This document shows positions 54,203 through 63,066 of a stretch of 64,000 nt of DNA, one piece after another. The notes beneath the pieces are model-generated. The model was not told where the DNA came from. It did not search any database and was given only the letters and a program-made list of their open reading frames with translations. The DNA is taken from positions 1-64,000 of the forward strand of contig NZ_CAJNBL010000006.1 of the NCBI RefSeq assembly GCF_905221025.1. The letters run 5' to 3'. Positions within the stretch are counted from its first letter, which is position 1, and every line of letters starts with the position of its first letter. Position numbers and translations under genes: made by a program. Source of the DNA: Candidatus Nitrotoga fabula (GTDB lineage: Bacteria; Pseudomonadota; Gammaproteobacteria; Burkholderiales; Gallionellaceae).

Positions 54203-55585
54203 TCAATACTGCAAAGCCTTGATCATATCCTCGACCACCTTCTTGGCATCGCCAAATACCATCATCGTCTTGTCCAGGTAAAACAGATCATTATCCAGTC
54301 CGGCATATCCAACGGCCATACTGCGCTTGACCACCAAAACAGTACGCGCCTTGTGCGCCTCAATTATCGGCATGCCGTAAATAGGTGAATGCGGATCGGT
54401 CTTGGCTGCCGGATTGACCACATCATTGGCGCCAATTACCAGCACCACATCCGTATCGGAAAATTCGTTATTGATCTCATCCATTTCAAAAACCTGGTCA
54501 TAAGGCACTTCGGCCTCGGCCAGTAACACATTCATGTGCCCCGGCATACGCCCAGCCACAGGATGGATCGCATAACGCACCTTGACGCCTTTTGCAATCA
54601 AAAGCTCGGCCATTTCGTTGATGGCATGCTGTGCTCGTGCCACTGCAAGACCATAACCCGGCACAATAATAACGCTGTCGGCATTCCCCATCAGGAAAGC
54701 CGCATCATCTGCGCTACCACTGCGCACTGGCCGCTGCTCGACTGCCCCACCGCCTGACCCACTGTCACCTTCCCCGCCAAAACCACCAAGAATCACATTG
54801 AAGAATGAACGGTTCATCGCCTTACACATGATGTACGACAGAATCGCTCCTGAACTGCCCACCAGTGAGCCGGCAATGATCAGCATATTGTTGTTCAGAG
54901 TAAACCCAATCCCTGCCGCAGCCCATCCAGAGTAGGAATTCAGCATTGACACCACAACCGGCATGTCCGCTCCCCCGATTGGCATGATGAGCAATACCCC
55001 GAGCAGCAACGCCAGAGCAATCATGATCAGGAACGGAGTCCAGCTTTGTGTGAACATAAAAACGATGCCGAAGGCAATCATCACAAGGCCCAGCAAAAGG
55101 TTCAACCAGTGCTGTCCGGCAAATACCAGCGGCTTGCTGCCGAGCTTTCCGGACAGCTTTCCAAAGGCAATGATAGACCCGGAAAAGGTGATCGCACCAA
55201 CAAATGTACCAATGAAGAGTTCCAGCAGATTGCTGGTATGCAGTGGCGCGATGCCATAGGCCACCGGGTTGTAAAATGCAGACATGGCGACCAGCACAGC
55301 CGCCAACCCGACCAGCGAGTGCATCGCTGCCACCAGTTCCGGCATAGCGGTCATTTCAATGCGCCGCGCAACCACCGCCCCTATCGCTCCGCCCACGATA
55401 ATTGCAAGCGCAATATAAAGCACGTTTTGAGTTATCGTCAGCGTCGTCAGCACGGCAATAGCCATGCCGATCATCCCAAACATATTTCCGCGGCGGGAGG
55501 AAACGGGGGAACTCAAACCTTTCAGCGCCAGAATGAATAAAACAGCGGCGATCAAATAGGCTAATGCAACAGAATTGGCCGACAT
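54203..55585 (-). CDS. pntB: NAD(P) transhydrogenase beta subunit
   Basis: The 460-residue subunit has about eight membrane segments (residues 1-260) that form the proton path with the PntA membrane domain. An NADP-binding domain III follows (SVIIVPGYGLAVARAQH, VRYAIHPVAGRMPGHMNVLLAEA, DVVNPAAK). The enzyme uses the proton gradient to reduce NADP with NADH. It is the third gene after pntAA and pntAB on this strand. Confidence 0.96.
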   Translation of the reverse strand: MSANSVALAYLIAAVLFILALKGLSSPVSSRRGNMFGMIGMAIAVLTTLTITQNVLYIALAIIVGGAIGAVVARRIEMTAMPELVAAMHSLVGLAAVLVAMSAFYNPVAYGIAPLHTSNLLELFIGTFVGAITFSGSIIAFGKLSGKLGSKPLVFAGQHWLNLLLGLVMIAFGIVFMFTQSWTPFLIMIALALLLGVLLIMPIGGADMPVVVSMLNSYSGWAAAGIGFTLNNNMLIIAGSLVGSSGAILSYIMCKAMNRSFFNVILGGFGGEGDSGSGGGAVEQRPVRSGSADDAAFLMGNADSVIIVPGYGLAVARAQHAINEMAELLIAKGVKVRYAIHPVAGRMPGHMNVLLAEAEVPYDQVFEMDEINNEFSDTDVVLVIGANDVVNPAAKTDPHSPIYGMPIIEAHKARTVLVVKRSMAVGYAGLDNDLFYLDKTMMVFGDAKKVVEDMIKALQY

Positions 55586-55726: not shown

Positions 55727-56014
55727 TTATTTATTTTTCTTCTTGAACATGGCCAGCATGCGCTGCGTTACCAGAAACCCTCCGAATACATTCACTGCCG
55801 CGAGCATAACGGCGCCCAGCCCCATCACTGTTCCGGCGTCGATCTGCTCCGGACCTGCCGCAAGCATGGCACCAACAATAATAATGCCACTGATCGCATT
55901 GGTCACAGCCATGAGCGGAGTATGCAGCGCTGGCGTAACATTCCAGACCACGTGATAGCCAACCACTACGGCCAGTACGAATACGGTCAGATTAATAATC
56001 ACAGGATCAACCAT
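55727..56014 (-). CDS. pntAB: NAD(P) transhydrogenase alpha subunit, membrane part
   Basis: The 95-residue protein has three membrane segments (about 5-22, 35-55, 60-82) and contains the PntA domain II block [33 protein letters not shown]. In E. coli this is fused to the soluble part; here it is a separate gene, as in many proteobacteria with the three-gene form. Confidence 0.93.
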
Positions 56015-56110: not shown

Positions 56111-57232
56111 TCAAACCACAACGGCTCCGTCGATGCACAGCAGTGATCCGGCAATAATGTCATCTTCTCGGTTTAGGTTCATCTTCCCGCCACTCTTGGG
56201 ATCACATAACAGGTTCAGGAAATTAAGCAAATTACGCGCATACAATGCGCTGGCATCTGCCGCAACCAGGGCAGGCAGGTTCTCTTCCCCAACCAGCGTA
56301 ACACCATGCTTGACCACCGTTTTACCTAACTCGGACAACGGGCAATTGCCCCCTGCCTCAACTGCCATATCCACGATCACTGAACCGGGCTTCATCGACT
56401 TCACCATATCTTCCGTAACCAGTACAGGAGCAGGTTTACCGGGAATAAGTGCAGTAGTAATCACGATATCGGCCTGTGCAACCCGCTTGGCAACTTCTAC
56501 CTTCTGGCGTTCCACCCAACTGGCCGGCATAGGCCGTGCGTAACCACCCACGCCCTGGGCGATTTCCCGCTCTTCGTCGGTTTCAAAAGGCACATCAATA
56601 AATTTGGCGCCGAGAGATTCCACCTGTTCTTTTACAGCCGGGCGCACATCGGTTGCCTCGATCACCGCTCCCATGCGCTTGGCAGTGGCAATAGCCTGCA
56701 AACCGGCAACGCCCACACCCAATATCACCACGCGCGCGGCCTTTACTGTTCCGGCAGCCGTCATCAGCATAGGCATGAACCGTTTATATAAGTTTGCCGC
56801 AACCAGCACTGCCTTATATCCGGCAATATTTGCCTGCGACGACAATACATCCATCGCCTGCGCACGTGATGTACGCGGCAGTTTTTCCATTGCGAATGCA
56901 GTAATGCCCTGTTTGGCATAGGTTGCAACCAGTTCCGTCTGGTAGGGGGAAAGCAGGCCGATCAGCACTGTGCCCGCAGCCAGCCTGGACAATTCGTCAC
57001 CGGTCGGCGCTTTCACCTTGAGCATGATTTCCGCCTGGGCATACACCTCCTCGGCATTGACCAGCATTGCACCTGCTGCCTGATAGTCTGCATCGGGAAT
57101 ACTTGCCCCAGCGCCAGCACCCTGCTGAATCAGAACAGCATGCCCGGCAGCCAGCATTTTTTTTACCGTTTCCGGTGTTGCTGCAACACGTGTTTCACCT
57201 GCGCGCGTTTCCGTAGGAATGGCTATTCGCAT
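56111..57232 (-). CDS. pntAA: NAD(P) transhydrogenase alpha subunit, NAD-binding part
   Basis: The 373-residue soluble domain I starts MRIAIPTETRAGETRVAATPETV. It has the Rossmann motif VVILGVGVAGLQAIATAKRMGA and the QDVRPAVKEQ-type loop (here TDVRPAVKEQVESLGA), with TTALIPGKPAP. It is the first gene of pntAA-pntAB-pntB. The Nfn-like flavoprotein gene ends 190 bp upstream of the region before it, on the same strand. Confidence 0.95.
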   Translation of the reverse strand: MRIAIPTETRAGETRVAATPETVKKMLAAGHAVLIQQGAGAGASIPDADYQAAGAMLVNAEEVYAQAEIMLKVKAPTGDELSRLAAGTVLIGLLSPYQTELVATYAKQGITAFAMEKLPRTSRAQAMDVLSSQANIAGYKAVLVAANLYKRFMPMLMTAAGTVKAARVVILGVGVAGLQAIATAKRMGAVIEATDVRPAVKEQVESLGAKFIDVPFETDEEREIAQGVGGYARPMPASWVERQKVEVAKRVAQADIVITTALIPGKPAPVLVTEDMVKSMKPGSVIVDMAVEAGGNCPLSELGKTVVKHGVTLVGEENLPALVAADASALYARNLLNFLNLLCDPKSGGKMNLNREDDIIAGSLLCIDGAVVV

Positions 57233-57422: not shown

Positions 57423-60400
57423 TCAAGCCGCACCTGTCGGCATCTGATCTTGTTCAACGCAATGCGCTATCCATTGCGCGGTCATTTTTTCCTGTACGGA
57501 ATTTTGCCTGAGCCTCGCATTCAGGGCGGGGAAATTCACGCAATCGAGCTTCTGGTCCTGATTAAAGCACGAGAACACATAAGTCTTTTCCCCGGTGGAA
57601 ATATCGTAATGCTCCTGAATACACTGACCACAAATTTCTTTCATCATGCATTGCATCGGAGAGTTGATCGAACCGTAAGCATGGTGATCCGGTTTCATAT
57701 AGGCTTTCAGCTCACCATGGCGGGCTGCAGCAACAGCGGCCATCATCCTGTCCGAGCCAATCGCAATAATGCGGTCAACCTGTTCCAGTCCGATCTCCGG
57801 ATGTCCGAGTTCTCCACTGGCATAGGCTTTAATGGCCTGTACAATATTGCCTACATAAGCACGATCCTGGGGACGGCCCGGAGTAAACCCAGGCGCATCA
57901 TCGCTGCACCAGACCACCACATCCGCCGCAAGTTCGATATCCTCTACCTTGTAGCGGTCAATCATTTTTTTATAACCGGCAAAATACAGAACCTTGGAAC
58001 CGATACTGCGGAATGCCTTGCCAATCGAGAACAGCACGGCATTACCCAGTCCGCCTCCTGCCAATAGAACAGTTTCTCCGGGTGCAATTTCCGTAGGCGC
58101 ACCCGTCGGACCCATGAGAACAACCGGCTCACCGTGCCTGAGTCTGGAGCATAATTGCGACGATCCGCCCATTTCCAGCACAATAGTGGAAAGCAGTCCC
58201 TGTTCGGCATCCACCCAGGCGCCCGTCAAAGCCAGACCCTCCATTATCATCCGTGTCCCATCCAACTGCGCGGAATCTGTCTCAAAATTCTGCAGCCGGT
58301 AGAATTGCCCGGGCTGGAAGCTGCGCGCAGCCGCAGGAGCCTTGACGATCACCTCAACAATATTGGGAGTAAGACGCTCCACCTTGTGAATTGTAGCGCG
58401 CAGATCATTCCCGAGACGAGCAAGAAAAGCCTGGTCACCTTCTTTCGCGGAAGAATGCACCTGTGACAGCACCCTGCTCAACACCGGATAACCCTGCTTC
58501 GCACTGCCCATGGCCTTGACCACATTACCCGAATAGGATGGATGCAAGTCTCCGAAAAAGCTCACAAACCTACCATCGTGATACCGGTACTGAAGCACAT
58601 GCGCACTGGATGGCTTGGCATTGCCCTTTTCTGGTCTTACGGGCTGCCCCTGTTCATCACATGCCTGGAAGTAACGTCCATCCAGCTTGAACTGATCGGG
58701 AAACTCGCGTGCCAGGACAGTATTCGGCTGGGTACCCGCGGCTACAAAAATAGTGCGTGCCGAAATCTGAATTTGTCCTGCCTTCTGCCAGTTTCCATCT
58801 GCATCCAACACCTGATTCATCACCACCATTGCAGTCGCATCGCCATTTTCATCTATTTCCACCCGCACCGGAGTCATCCCCTCGGCAAAGTAGATTCCTT
58901 CTTCCAGCGCCTTCTCCACTTCTTCATGGTTAAGCGTGTAGGAAGGACTATCAATCAAGCGCTTGCGGTAGACCAGGGTAACCCCACCCCACGATTTGAT
59001 AAGCTGCAGGATGTTCGGGCTGCGTCCTTCAGTTTCGGCCTGCGCACGCTCTGCCCGTATCGCCCGGGCATGGCCAAGAAACTCGTCACCGACAACCAAT
59101 TCTGCAGCGGACCATGCGCTACGCACTGCCGCTTCGCCTTTTTCTGCAACCAGCTTTTCATAGCGGTCGAGAAATTTTTCCACCTGTACCGGATAATAAG
59201 CGAGGGATTCAGTAGCCGTATCGATTGCAGTCAAACCGCCACCGATTACCACAACTGGCAGGCGAACCTGCATGTTGGCAATGGAATCCGGCTTGGCCGC
59301 CCCTGTCAACTGCAACGCCATCAGAAAATCCGATGCGGTGCGCACGCCGCATGCCATCCCGTTTGGAATATCCAGCAGGGTCGGGCGACCAGCACCTGCC
59401 GCCAGCGCAATATGATCAAACCCCATGGAAAACGCGCTCTCGGCGGTGATGGTTCCGCCAAAACGCACGCCCCCGAACAGGGCGAATTGCGAGCGACGTT
59501 CCAGAAGGAGCCGAATGATTTTGAGGAAATTTTTATCCCATCGGACTGTAATGCCATATTCGGCCACGCCGCCAAAACCAGCCATCACCCGGTTATCCAG
59601 CGGCTCTTTCAATATGCCCGCGTCGTAAATTGGGCTGAAAGGAACCCGGTTGCCATAAACATCCACGCCGGAAAGATCACCCGGCAGTGGTTCGATTTTC
59701 AACCCATCAATGCCGACAACGATATGACCATCATTCATTAAATGATGCGCCAGAGTAAAACCGGCAGGCCCCATTCCAACCACCAGCACGCGCTTGCCGG
59801 TGGCGGCGCGTGGATAGGGACGGTGAATATTCAGGGGATTCCATCTGGTAAGCAGGCTGTAGATTTCAAAACCCCAGGGCAGCTCCAGCACATCTTTCAG
59901 CGATCTGGTTTCTGACTGCGGGATATTGACCGACTCCTGTTTTTGATAAATGCAGGATTTCATGCAATCGTTGCAGATACGATGCCCCGTCGCGGCACAC
60001 ATCGGGTTGTCTACGGTAATGATGGCCAGCGCACCCAGTGCCAGGCCGGAAGCCTTGACTTTATGAAACTCGGAAATCTTCTCGTCCACCGGGCACCCTG
60101 CCAGAGGGATTCCAAAAACGCTTTTCTTGAATGGAGGAGGAGAACCATCAGAACCAGCCTTATCCCGCATTCCCACCGAGCAGGAATCCTTGCCTTGTTC
60201 ATGGCACCAGATGCAGTAGTTCGCTTCCCCCAGCGCGCCCGCCAAACCTGTGCCTTGATCTGTCAGGGCAAAACCCTCGCGATGGCGCAAATGACTGTCT
60301 GCCAGGCGGTGGGCAACATAAGGGACATTTTCAACCCGAATAACCGGCACCAGGCGCTGAAAATCCAGTTTGGCAGGAACACGGAACAGAACGCCCTGCC

Positions 60401-61007
60401 CGTGGCGCTTTTTACCTGCGCTGGTATGCACTGCCCAGGCAGCATAACGCATGGCGAGATCAATCCTGTCCGCATTTTCTGCCTCTGCGTCCAGCCAGCG
60501 ATTCACGTTGCGGGCAAAATTTAGTTCATCCAATTCACCTGAAGTGTCACCGAAAGCCTGCAGCAAGCCTGCCTTGAGAGCCTCACCATCAAAAGCTGCA
60601 GCATCAACGGCCTTGTATTTTTGCGCGGCCTTGCGCTGCACAAAAATTCGTTTGCAATGAAATAGCGGGGCCAGTTGGTTGTGTCTTTCAGCCAGTTCGC
60701 GTACCGATGACTGAATAGCAAACAAATTTCCCAGAAAATCTTCCAGGTGCGGCGCAAGATCAATGATAAGCTGCGACTCTTGCAGGCGCGTCAGCTGACC
60801 AGAATCCTTTCGTGCTGCCACCAGCCTTTCTGCCAACACTGAATCGCTATTAGCAAGTTCGGCGAGAAACGTGGAATCAATACGGGACAAACCATCACAA
60901 CTGTAAAGGTCTGCAAATTCCATCCCGAATCCCAGATTCAAAACTGGAGGTGAAGATTCCCCATGATCCGTTCCTCCGGCTCCTTGCCGTGAATATAAGC
61001 TTTCCAT
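57423..61007 (-). CDS. Nfn-like fused iron-sulfur flavoprotein (GltD-type plus PyrK-type)
   Basis: ATG at 61007 follows AGGAG (10 nt); the frame also opens with TTG at 61016. The product is about 1194 residues. Residues 1-260 are a helical domain I do not recognise. Two clusters of Cys follow (about 268-279 CIWC...CS; 340-355 CAATGHRICNDCMKSC), as in the N-terminus of GltD, which binds two [4Fe-4S]. Next come an FAD fold (VVGMGPAGFT, about 413) and an NAD(P) fold (VVVIGGGLTAIDTA, about 590). From about 880 there is a PyrK/ferredoxin-reductase domain with [2Fe-2S] cysteines at the end (QCMMKEICGQC...SC). This is NfnB plus NfnA in one chain. Bifurcating activity is unproven. Confidence 0.8.
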   Translation of the reverse strand: MESLYSRQGAGGTDHGESSPPVLNLGFGMEFADLYSCDGLSRIDSTFLAELANSDSVLAERLVAARKDSGQLTRLQESQLIIDLAPHLEDFLGNLFAIQSSVRELAERHNQLAPLFHCKRIFVQRKAAQKYKAVDAAAFDGEALKAGLLQAFGDTSGELDELNFARNVNRWLDAEAENADRIDLAMRYAAWAVHTSAGKKRHGQGVLFRVPAKLDFQRLVPVIRVENVPYVAHRLADSHLRHREGFALTDQGTGLAGALGEANYCIWCHEQGKDSCSVGMRDKAGSDGSPPPFKKSVFGIPLAGCPVDEKISEFHKVKASGLALGALAIITVDNPMCAATGHRICNDCMKSCIYQKQESVNIPQSETRSLKDVLELPWGFEIYSLLTRWNPLNIHRPYPRAATGKRVLVVGMGPAGFTLAHHLMNDGHIVVGIDGLKIEPLPGDLSGVDVYGNRVPFSPIYDAGILKEPLDNRVMAGFGGVAEYGITVRWDKNFLKIIRLLLERRSQFALFGGVRFGGTITAESAFSMGFDHIALAAGAGRPTLLDIPNGMACGVRTASDFLMALQLTGAAKPDSIANMQVRLPVVVIGGGLTAIDTATESLAYYPVQVEKFLDRYEKLVAEKGEAAVRSAWSAAELVVGDEFLGHARAIRAERAQAETEGRSPNILQLIKSWGGVTLVYRKRLIDSPSYTLNHEEVEKALEEGIYFAEGMTPVRVEIDENGDATAMVVMNQVLDADGNWQKAGQIQISARTIFVAAGTQPNTVLAREFPDQFKLDGRYFQACDEQGQPVRPEKGNAKPSSAHVLQYRYHDGRFVSFFGDLHPSYSGNVVKAMGSAKQGYPVLSRVLSQVHSSAKEGDQAFLARLGNDLRATIHKVERLTPNIVEVIVKAPAAARSFQPGQFYRLQNFETDSAQLDGTRMIMEGLALTGAWVDAEQGLLSTIVLEMGGSSQLCSRLRHGEPVVLMGPTGAPTEIAPGETVLLAGGGLGNAVLFSIGKAFRSIGSKVLYFAGYKKMIDRYKVEDIELAADVVVWCSDDAPGFTPGRPQDRAYVGNIVQAIKAYASGELGHPEIGLEQVDRIIAIGSDRMMAAVAAARHGELKAYMKPDHHAYGSINSPMQCMMKEICGQCIQEHYDISTGEKTYVFSCFNQDQKLDCVNFPALNARLRQNSVQEKMTAQWIAHCVEQDQMPTGAA

Positions 61008-61185: not shown

Positions 61186-63066
61186 ATGTCCGCAATACAA
61201 CGGTTACCCGATTTACTCATTAATCAAATTGCTGCCGGGGAAGTGATCGAACGTCCTGCAGCAGCTCTCAAAGAACTGCTGGAAAACAGCCTGGACGCGG
61301 GAGCTACTGAAATCAGCGTGCATCTGGAAGGGGGTGGAATCAAACTGGTACGTGTGCGCGACAATGGGAACGGCATCACCCAAGAAGAACTGCCTTTAGC
61401 CCTGGAGCGCCATGCAACCAGTAAAATTGCCTCGCTTGCAGACTTGCAACAGGTGTCCAGTATGGGGTTTCGCGGTGAGGCTTTGGCCAGCATGGCCGCC
61501 ATAGCGCAGGTAACCATTACCAGTCGCCGCATGGAAAGCCCGCATGCCTGGCAAATCAAATCGATGGACGGCATACAGGGCGAAATAGCACCCGCAGCAC
61601 ATTCTCACGGCACCAGTGTAGAAATTCGTGAAATTTACTTCAACACCCCGGTGCGTCGCAAATTTCTCAAGTCCGAAGCCACCGAATTTACGTACTGCGA
61701 GGAAATATTCAAGCGGATCGCACTATCACGCCCGGATGTAGCCTTCAGCCTGCAGCACAACAACCGCACGGTCTGGCAATTGCCCCCGATGGCCTGTCCG
61801 GGCCAGACGCACCCTGCTTTTGCTTCCCGGCTTGCCGGAAGCGGACGGATAGAAAATGCAGATGGCTTACCCAAGCGGATCGAAGCCATATTGGGAACCG
61901 ATTTTGTCCAGAGCGCGGTAATGATCTCGCGCCAGACAGCCGGACTGCATTTGTCTGGAATGGTCTCCCTGCCGGTTTATTCCAGGGCTACGCGCGAGGC
62001 TCAATATTTTTTCGTGAATGACCGATTTATTCGCGACAAGGTCATTGCCCATGCCATTCGGCAGGCCTACCATGACATCCTCCATCTCCAGCGCCATCCG
62101 GCTTTCGTACTGTTTCTCGACATGCCGCCAGAGCTGGTGGACGTAAATGTACACCCATCCAAAAGCGAAGTCCGCTTTCGCGAAAGCAAGGCGATACACC
62201 AGTTCGTATTCCATACGCTGCACGATGCACTGAGCACGCCAGCATCCTCAACACCAACCGGTTCGGCACTCCCGGACCAAAGGTCTCCGGGTTCTTCTTC
62301 CGGACAGCGGATTACCTGGCTTTCGCAACCTGTGCAGCAACCCATGAATTTGCACATAGCTTCACAGCCCATGGCGTTGTATGACGCCCTTTACGGGGAC
62401 ATGGCCTCCAGGAAAGAACCCGCCGCGAACCCTTATGATTCCCCCACGGCATTTCCCCCCGCCCAGCCTCTCCAGTCCGGAATCCCGCCGCTCGGGTTCG
62501 CCCTTGCGCAGCTTGCCGGCATTTACATTCTGGCGCAGAACATACATGGCCTGGTTGTGGTGGACATGCACGCTGCACACGAACGGATTATTTACGAAAA
62601 TCTCAAGGCAGCACTGGATGAGCACCAGATTCCCATGCAAACGTTACTGATCCCGGCAAGCTTTTCAGCGGAAGCGCTGGACATTGCAACAGCCGAAGAA
62701 GAACGCTCGGCCATTGCCAGGCTTGGGTTTACGATCGACCCATTGCCCCCAACTACGCTGGCAGTACGTGCCATGCCTGCCATGCTCAAACAGGCGCACG
62801 CAGAGGCGGCCGCACGGGATGTTTTGCGCGAAATGCGGGAATACGGCTCCACGCGCGTACTGACTGAGCGGCGCAACGAGTTGCTATCCACTCTGGCTTG
62901 CCATTCTGCCGTGCGTGCCAACCAAAACCTTACCCTGCCAGAAATGAACAGCATCCTGCGTGAAATGGAGCGCACAGAGCGCTCCGGTCAGTGCAATCAT
63001 GGCCGGCCAACATGGTTCCAAATGAGCATCACTGAACTGGATACGCTGTTTATGCGAGGGAAATGA
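61186..63066 (+). CDS. mutL: MutL, DNA mismatch repair protein (endonuclease type)
   Basis: The 626-residue protein has the GHKL ATPase motifs [29 protein letters not shown] and [10 protein letters not shown]. After a long linker (about 340-430), the C-terminal domain carries [12 protein letters not shown], which fits the endonuclease motif DQHA-x2-E-x4-E with Met for Gln, plus ACHSAVRAN and the final CNHGRPT metal motif. This means MutL itself nicks DNA, as in bacteria without MutH. It overlaps miaA by 4 bp. Confidence 0.95.

Follow-up and report, generated by a model that had tools for sequence, protein, structure and literature searches.

A single-chain Nfn-like iron-sulfur flavoprotein beside the transhydrogenase genes of Candidatus Nitrotoga fabula, and its possible link to ferredoxin and sulfite reduction

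Nfn enzymes, among the closest described relatives of the protein analysed here, also occur as fused chains. Passages of PMC6405883 distinguish pattern B (Firmicutes, Bacteroidetes and Fusobacteria), pattern C, with about 200 additional residues and a C-terminal NfnA part (Actinobacteria, Alpha- and Gammaproteobacteria), and pattern D (diplomonads), and name one Nfn homolog in an aerobe. An initial annotation of the present DNA had described NfnAB as separate subunits, a view that these fused homologs (described in the same passages of PMC6405883) correct. Descriptions of bifurcating enzymes come chiefly from anaerobes; part of PMC6085437 reports homologs of them in 681 organisms, 74% of them strict anaerobes and 16% aerobes, with most Fix homologs in aerobes, and a section of PMC7596348 describes DsrL, a relative of NfnB, as the NAD(P)H partner of siroheme sulfite reductase. 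Here we analyse a single-chain Nfn-like gene in a 64,000-nt stretch of Candidatus Nitrotoga fabula (contig NZ_CAJNBL010000006.1, positions 1 to 64,000; hereafter the window). Candidatus Nitrotoga are nitrite oxidisers.

The gene reads as follows:
57423..61007, minus strand: Nfn-like iron-sulfur flavoprotein gene (P0001), 1194 amino acids (aa); intact open reading frame (ORF) plus relatives

Its frame is uninterrupted, giving 1197 aa from a TTG or 1194 aa from the ATG at 61007, which is preceded at 10 nt by GGAG. A scan of genome contigs found at least 569 relatives, the best 80 of which were kept as the locus set; because these 80 match at 62–87% identity (83–86% for the Nitrotoga-named loci L004, L005 and L036), we regard the ORF as a real gene. 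The promoter scan returned 4 sites against 7.4 expected. With intact frame, profile matches and structure matches in agreement, the single 1194-residue chain with GltD-like and PyrK-like halves that the initial annotation had described was borne out.

We tentatively favour, at slightly less than an even chance, the view that this protein is a single-chain Nfn-like NADPH:ferredoxin oxidoreductase that is fed by PntAB and supplies sulfite reductase and other ferredoxin-dependent steps. The protein has, on the evidence of its sequence and model, an Nfn-like anatomy with a full set of candidate ligands, laid out along the minus strand in the following order:
60405..60920, minus strand: N-terminal helical domain, residues 30-201; structure model, no PDB fold match
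58464..60245, minus strand: GltD/NfnB-like half, residues 255-848; profile matches, alignment and Foldseek match to 5jca_L
60180..60215, minus strand: C265, C268 and C276, inferred distal [4Fe-4S] ligands (with C352); invariant, 52/52
59910..60095, minus strand: C305, C345, C348 and E366 (inferred proximal [4Fe-4S] ligands), together with C352; invariant, 52/52
59760..59777, minus strand: GMGPAG, first dinucleotide (FAD) motif, residues 411-416; sequence and alignment A1
59532..59573, minus strand: GGVAEYGITVRWDK, loop containing R489; aligns with P. furiosus NfnL R201
58989..59195, minus strand: insertion of about 70 residues (within 605-673), mostly helical; missing from the aligned PRK12779 proteins, helices in the model
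58959..58970, minus strand: YRKR (680-683), in place of the NfnB NADP-phosphate motif YRR; 52-sequence alignment
57450..58397, minus strand: PyrK/NfnA-like half, residues 871-1186; profile matches, alignment and Foldseek match to 5jca_S
57567..57650, minus strand: C1120, C1126, C1129 and C1147, inferred [2Fe-2S] ligands, all Cys; invariant, 52/52

Motifs were counted in an alignment of 52 sequences, comprising the window protein and 51 relatives with 38–78% identity to it, in which C265, C268, C276, C305, C345, C348, C352, E366, R489, C1120, C1126, C1129 and C1147 are invariant throughout. A section of PMC7596348 gives the cluster ligands of T. maritima NfnB as C39, C42, C47, C51, C90, C96, C100 and E117, and we infer from the alignment that the first eight invariant residues match these in order and form two [4Fe-4S] sites: the distal set C265, C268, C276 and C352 pairs by order with NfnB C39, C42, C47 and C100, and the proximal set C305, C345, C348 and E366 with C51, C90, C96 and E117. 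Loss of such ligands, which the initial annotation had named as a result that would count against an Nfn-like enzyme, was not observed, all candidate cluster ligands being invariant in 52 of 52 sequences. R489 aligns, via a one-residue gap, with Arg201 of P. furiosus NfnL, which we take to be equivalent to T. maritima R187. In Nfn an arginine, R187 in T. maritima, binds N5 of the bifurcating FAD (passage of PMC6405883). In the first dinucleotide motif, G411, G413, P414 and G416 are invariant in alignment A1. The NADP-phosphate motif, which spans Y310-R312 in NfnB (section of PMC7596348), keeps its Y and first R in 52/52, and we count it as present because the third position is K (31) or R (20) in 51 of 52 sequences, with Q in the remaining one.

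The AlphaFold2 model, built from the 52-row alignment, reached a mean predicted local distance difference test (pLDDT) score of 89.5 and a predicted TM-score (pTM) of 0.91, with pLDDT below 50 at residues 477-483, immediately ahead of R489. Foldseek against the PDB placed P. furiosus NfnI L (5jca_L) first, with a TM-score of 0.79 on the target, and NfnI S (5jca_S) sixth, at 0.90 on the target; DPD, GltD and adrenodoxin reductase ranked below NfnI. The structural comparison with NfnAB that the initial annotation had proposed returned NfnI subunits as the best PDB matches of both halves, with complete cluster ligands; sequence comparison likewise gave Nfn subunits as the best PDB matches. Residues 22-262 modelled alone form a confident helical bundle (pLDDT 89.7) for which Foldseek gave no PDB fold match (best E 1.9), and which did not align with the N-terminal end of the one PRK12779 protein compared; the N-terminal domain that the initial annotation had left unrecognised therefore keeps that standing, now as a confidently modelled fold.

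Among sequence families, the best match is NCBIfam PRK06567 (NF005128), at 763.1 bits against a cut-off of 1072, with the best stretch at residues 24-737; 13 of 299 phylum genomes match this model, and 0 of these 13 pass its cut-off. Other models score further below threshold (PRK12779, NF009415, 97.6 bits against 1519; the GltD models TIGR01317, 45.0 against 447.7, and TIGR01318, 37.6 against 483). The Pfam matches are Pyr_redox_2 and, at 23.3 bits and under its 25.8 cut-off, Fer4_20, and NCBIfam models of PyrK-containing fusions match the C-terminal part. Neither the CysJ-type flavodoxin domain nor FAD_binding_1 appears among Pfam matches up to E = 1, and our literature search found no functional study of the family to which the window protein belongs.

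Compared with Nfn (PDB 5JCA and 4YLF), the window protein shares both halves, two candidate [4Fe-4S] ligand sets including the Glu, and a candidate [2Fe-2S] set; R489, aligned across a one-residue gap, is a candidate for the arginine at the N5 place. It differs in being one chain of order L-S with 20–22% identity to Nfn, in an added N-terminal domain of about 200 residues, and in having an all-Cys [2Fe-2S] site and EGLALT where Nfn has Asp(Cys)3 and ERxPxT. PRK12779 is likely to be the model of fused pattern C, with which the window protein shares a GltD-like half followed by a PyrK-like half in one chain behind an N-terminal extension; this extension is not alignable to that of PRK12779 (one sequence), the PRK12779-type protein of L171 keeps the Asp (VDATGMCGAC), and the window protein carries insertions of about 40 and about 70 residues measured against PRK12779. 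DsrL is likewise an NfnB-related iron-sulfur flavoprotein, but one of its distal Cys is replaced by Ser or Thr and its partner is DsrAB (section of PMC7596348), whereas the window protein keeps all seven Cys and the sulfur genes near its relatives are those of assimilation. Fpr resembles the protein only in the proposed role, NADPH to ferredoxin: E. coli Fpr has 248 aa and matches other families, and its occurrence is negatively associated with that of the Nfn-like gene.

In the mechanism that we propose, NADPH would reduce the FAD of the GltD-like half by hydride transfer close to R489; of the two electrons, one would pass through the two [4Fe-4S] clusters to ferredoxin, with FdxA as a candidate, and the other through the [2Fe-2S] cluster and the second FAD to NAD+. 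The net reaction would be 2 NADPH + 2 oxidised ferredoxin + NAD+ -> 2 NADP+ + 2 reduced ferredoxin + NADH, the reverse of the Nfn reaction. Powered by the proton motive force, PntAB would keep NADPH reduced, so that PntAB and the Nfn-like enzyme together would turn proton motive force into reduced ferredoxin. Where Fpr is absent, this ferredoxin would in turn supply CysJ-less sulfite reductase along with further ferredoxin-dependent reactions. The anatomy favours an Nfn-like enzyme that could in principle bifurcate, and possibly the enzyme does so; context and co-occurrence point to a role in supplying ferredoxin, or electrons directly, to assimilation, with sulfite reduction first. An assimilatory sulfite reductase has been assayed with ferredoxin, FNR and NADPH (part of PMC13188885).

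Sulfur assimilation and ferredoxin are a context common to distant lineages. Among 73 anchored loci, 19 have a cysH cluster upstream, 19 a cysD and 19 a cysN cluster, and 20 have a sulfite/nitrite-reductase-like hemoprotein there; every one of these loci is Nitroso- named, the recurrent order being sulfite-reductase-like gene, cysH, cysD, cysN, Nfn-like gene; neighbour clusters were named by hidden Markov model (HMM) from one representative each, and the hemoprotein representative fell under every cut-off. In G063, from the same phylum and another class, a CysI-type sulfite reductase (676.8 bits, cut-off 457), a siroheme-synthase-like gene, cysH, cysD and cysNC precede the Nfn-like gene, the last gap being 3 bp, and the ORFs listed nearby include no pnt match. 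On the Acidithiobacillus caldus plasmid pTcM1, typed as mobilizable, FdxA stands directly upstream of a 45% relative of the window protein, in a cluster (L199:6564-13456) with a PRK08275-like flavoprotein, a Fer4 ferredoxin and a HEAT protein. Twenty further loci with diverged or distant copies include six with a HEAT protein upstream, with FdxA in five, the PRK08275-like flavoprotein in three and the Fer4 ferredoxin in one, and in such HEAT-type clusters ORFs of ABC-transporter size lie in between (HMM check in L206). Clusters like that of pTcM1 were seen in L201, L203, L206, L207, L209 and L219, with ABC-transporter-like ORFs.

The window's own genome carries a cluster of a 581-aa hemoprotein, DUF934, CysH, CysD and CysN, the last three HMM-confirmed and the hemoprotein under every NCBIfam cut-off. 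The genome also has FdxA and one match to the thioredoxin-reductase family; it gave no Fpr-like match and no CysJ-type FAD domain. Nor was a CysJ-type FAD domain found in any of 7 genomes from the window's genus or in any of 5 others from its family. Across 300 genomes of the order, the Nfn-like gene and an Fpr-like gene were found together in 25, the Nfn-like gene only in 58, the Fpr-like gene only in 149 and neither in 68, a negative association (Fisher p 2e-9, odds ratio 0.20), where Fpr-like means E <= 1e-25 to NF008178, whose own cut-off 0 of the 300 genomes pass. The same genomes divide for pntB into 71 with both genes, 12 with the Nfn-like gene only, 150 with pntB only and 67 with neither (p 0.003). 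Since the genomes are related, these p values overstate independence.

The transhydrogenase genes follow the Nfn-like gene, and mutL diverges from it:
56111..57232, minus strand: pntAA, proton-translocating transhydrogenase; Pfam and NCBIfam
55727..56014, minus strand: pntAB; Pfam and NCBIfam
54203..55585, minus strand: pntB; Pfam and NCBIfam
61186..63066, plus strand: mutL, divergent; marks the mutL-pntAA neighbourhood that is present without the Nfn-like gene in relatives; family match

A 190-bp gap separates the Nfn-like gene from pntAA and contains two weak terminator-like sites, of which the scanned stretch holds 13 against 8.4 expected. By tblastn, pntAA, pntAB and pntB lie downstream of the Nfn-like gene in 21 of the 80 loci, namely 19 of the 25 named Nitrotoga or Nitroso- plus L006, a contig of G352 from the window's genus, and L007; L003 ends inside pntAA, and L031, among the six named loci without pnt, ends about 200 bp past the gene. 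The labels f1 and f3 used for families were read as Gallionellaceae and Nitrosomonadaceae from the relatives' names and the trees. Outside f3, mutL and pntAA occur together without the Nfn-like gene in 9 of 17 pnt regions (L181, L183-L189 and L192), the two matches lying under 400 bp apart in 7 of the 9; five of the 9 belong to the window's family and are gene-less in the family survey as well. Because these gene-less relatives keep mutL near pntAA, the Nfn-like gene occupies an older mutL-pntAA neighbourhood, and part of its adjacency to pnt is positional history. Of the joint NADPH/reductant system that the initial annotation had drawn from this neighbourhood, the recurrence in two nitrifier groups stands, whereas most of the 80 loci are not beside pnt and the mutL-pntAA arrangement predates the gene. 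As separate observations, genomes of the window's family (L179-L186) hold two pnt types, about 84% and 56–57% identical to the window PntB; the Nitrosomonas loci L040, L041, L050, L054 and L063 have a PvrR-like cyclic di-GMP phosphodiesterase cluster gene directly upstream (L050 checked, under cut-off); and an RtcB-type RNA ligase gene lies at window:37910-39340.

Several observations weigh against the NADPH:ferredoxin oxidoreductase reading that we favour. An Fpr-like gene accompanies the Nfn-like gene in 25 of 83 gene-bearing genomes, and 12 of the 83 lack pntB. NIR_SIR proteins, a count that includes NirB and dissimilatory types, occur in 60/60 family genomes, 48 of them gene-less, and gene-less family genomes lack a CysJ-type domain (5/5) and an Fpr-like match (8/8), so other electron donors must exist. 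FdxA was found in 12/12 tested genomes, 3 of them gene-less, and its presence alone therefore says little. The cys genes of Nitrotoga are on another contig than the Nfn-like gene. Outside the Nitrotoga and Nitroso- loci, only L006 and L007 show pnt or cys clusters within seven ORFs, and 13 of the 20 further loci show no FdxA or cys cluster (L213, among the 13, has FdxA five ORFs off on the opposite strand); the G063 locus is one of the other seven. A CysJ-type FAD domain is present in 3 of 9 f3 genomes, and G446 (L196) keeps the Nfn-like gene between cysN and pntAA with a full-length CysJ (719.7 bits) a few genes away, so the gene is not merely a CysJ substitute there; strict replacement of CysJ by the Nfn-like gene, which we had considered, is weakened accordingly.

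Details of the protein point the same way. R489 reaches its alignment with R201 only through the gap noted above, the Asp ligand of the Nfn [2Fe-2S] cluster (motif DGTGMCGxC in passages of PMC6405883) is replaced by C1120, giving four Cys in 52/52, and EGLALT stands at the second FAD site of the window protein in place of ERxPxT (over the 52 sequences, position 924 is G in 50, A in 1 and L in 1; 926 is A in 51 and P in 1; 928 is T in 50 and S in 2). The distant relatives L087 and L094 have no GGGxG motif in the C-terminal half and keep the four [2Fe-2S] cysteines, so the second nucleotide site is dispensable in some members. L087 and L213 come from G289, a genome of 1.4 Mb.

These points bear differently on the alternatives. 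Rather unlikely in our judgement is an NAD(P)H:acceptor oxidoreductase that does not bifurcate and, in the manner of DsrL, would pass electrons straight to siroheme sulfite reductase or to some other partner; the N-terminal helical domain might serve for docking, and the two nucleotide sites would be used as alternatives. The DsrL precedent (section of PMC7596348), the placement in cys operons in two distant lineages, the [2Fe-2S] site without Asp and the clusters kept by L087 and L094 without the C-terminal glycine-rich motif all suit such an enzyme, yet R489 and the Glu ligand are retained and the Nitrotoga gene stands apart from the cys genes. The sulfite reductase set-ups beside the Nfn-like gene also differ (a 688-698-aa hemoprotein, a 580-aa hemoprotein, a 583-aa CysI type, CysJ), and tight docking to one partner is therefore unlikely. 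Operation in the clostridial Nfn direction, from NADH and reduced ferredoxin to NADPH, would agree with the resemblance to Nfn and with described Nfn physiology (passages of PMC6405883), but the recurrent neighbours of the gene are reductant consumers. Moreover, PntAB, encoded next door, can make NADPH from NADH. We hold the clostridial direction to be improbable.

We consider it unlikely that the place beside pnt reflects position alone, the Nfn-like gene having entered the older mutL-pntAA neighbourhood while acting on a separate substrate of its own. The gene-less mutL-pntAA regions, the 190-bp gap with its weak terminator-like sites, the modest association with pntB (71/12/150/67) and the lack of either pnt or cys context at most other loci would fit this account; place and orientation upstream of pntAA nevertheless recur in Nitrotoga and Nitroso- loci, as do the cys and FdxA contexts elsewhere. 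That the protein is a small subunit of glutamate synthase is scarcely credible: NCBIfam titles PRK06567 glutamate synthase subunit beta/hydroxylase, but the window protein adds the PyrK half and the N-terminal domain, and we rejected this assignment because the same genome encodes a small subunit of its own (753 bits against a cut-off of 448) beside a large-subunit-like ORF on contig C21. The comparison suggests that the database name (glutamate synthase beta/polyprenylphenol hydroxylase) is misleading.

The Nfn-like gene is common but patchy. It occurs in 12 of 60 genomes of the window's family (14 genera), all 12 in the window's genus, in 83 of 300 genomes and 39 of 139 genera of the order, and in 13 of 299 (family model) or 15 of 397 (protein query) genomes of the phylum, two samples that overlap; in view of the 83 genomes of the order, a gene peculiar to nitrifiers was set aside. 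In the gene tree the Nitrotoga copies lie beside Nitrosomonadaceae copies with weak support (0.615), and the pnt trees join Nitrotoga to L179 and L183, both from the window's family. With the gene and pnt trees placing Nitrotoga differently, joint transfer of the Nfn-like gene and pnt into Nitrotoga was set aside. Two nearly full-length copies were found in each of G362, G515 and G541, and the records of three environmental metagenome-assembled genomes, L011, L021 and L022, carry the name Bordetella parapertussis, which their isolate names indicate is probably a wrong label.

Taken to its fullest extent, the NADPH:ferredoxin oxidoreductase that we favour would form with PntAB a module that converts proton motive force into low-potential ferredoxin by true bifurcation, standing in functionally for Rnf and Fpr in aerobic nitrifiers and many other Proteobacteria, and would be the missing source of electrons for CysJ-less assimilatory sulfite reductase; this broader proposal we regard as possible but doubtful. 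An Nfn-like family that is common among nitrifiers and related bacteria would extend the Nfn type to aerobic metabolism, and it would provide a testable explanation of how certain bacteria lacking Fpr and CysJ manage to reduce ferredoxin and sulfite.

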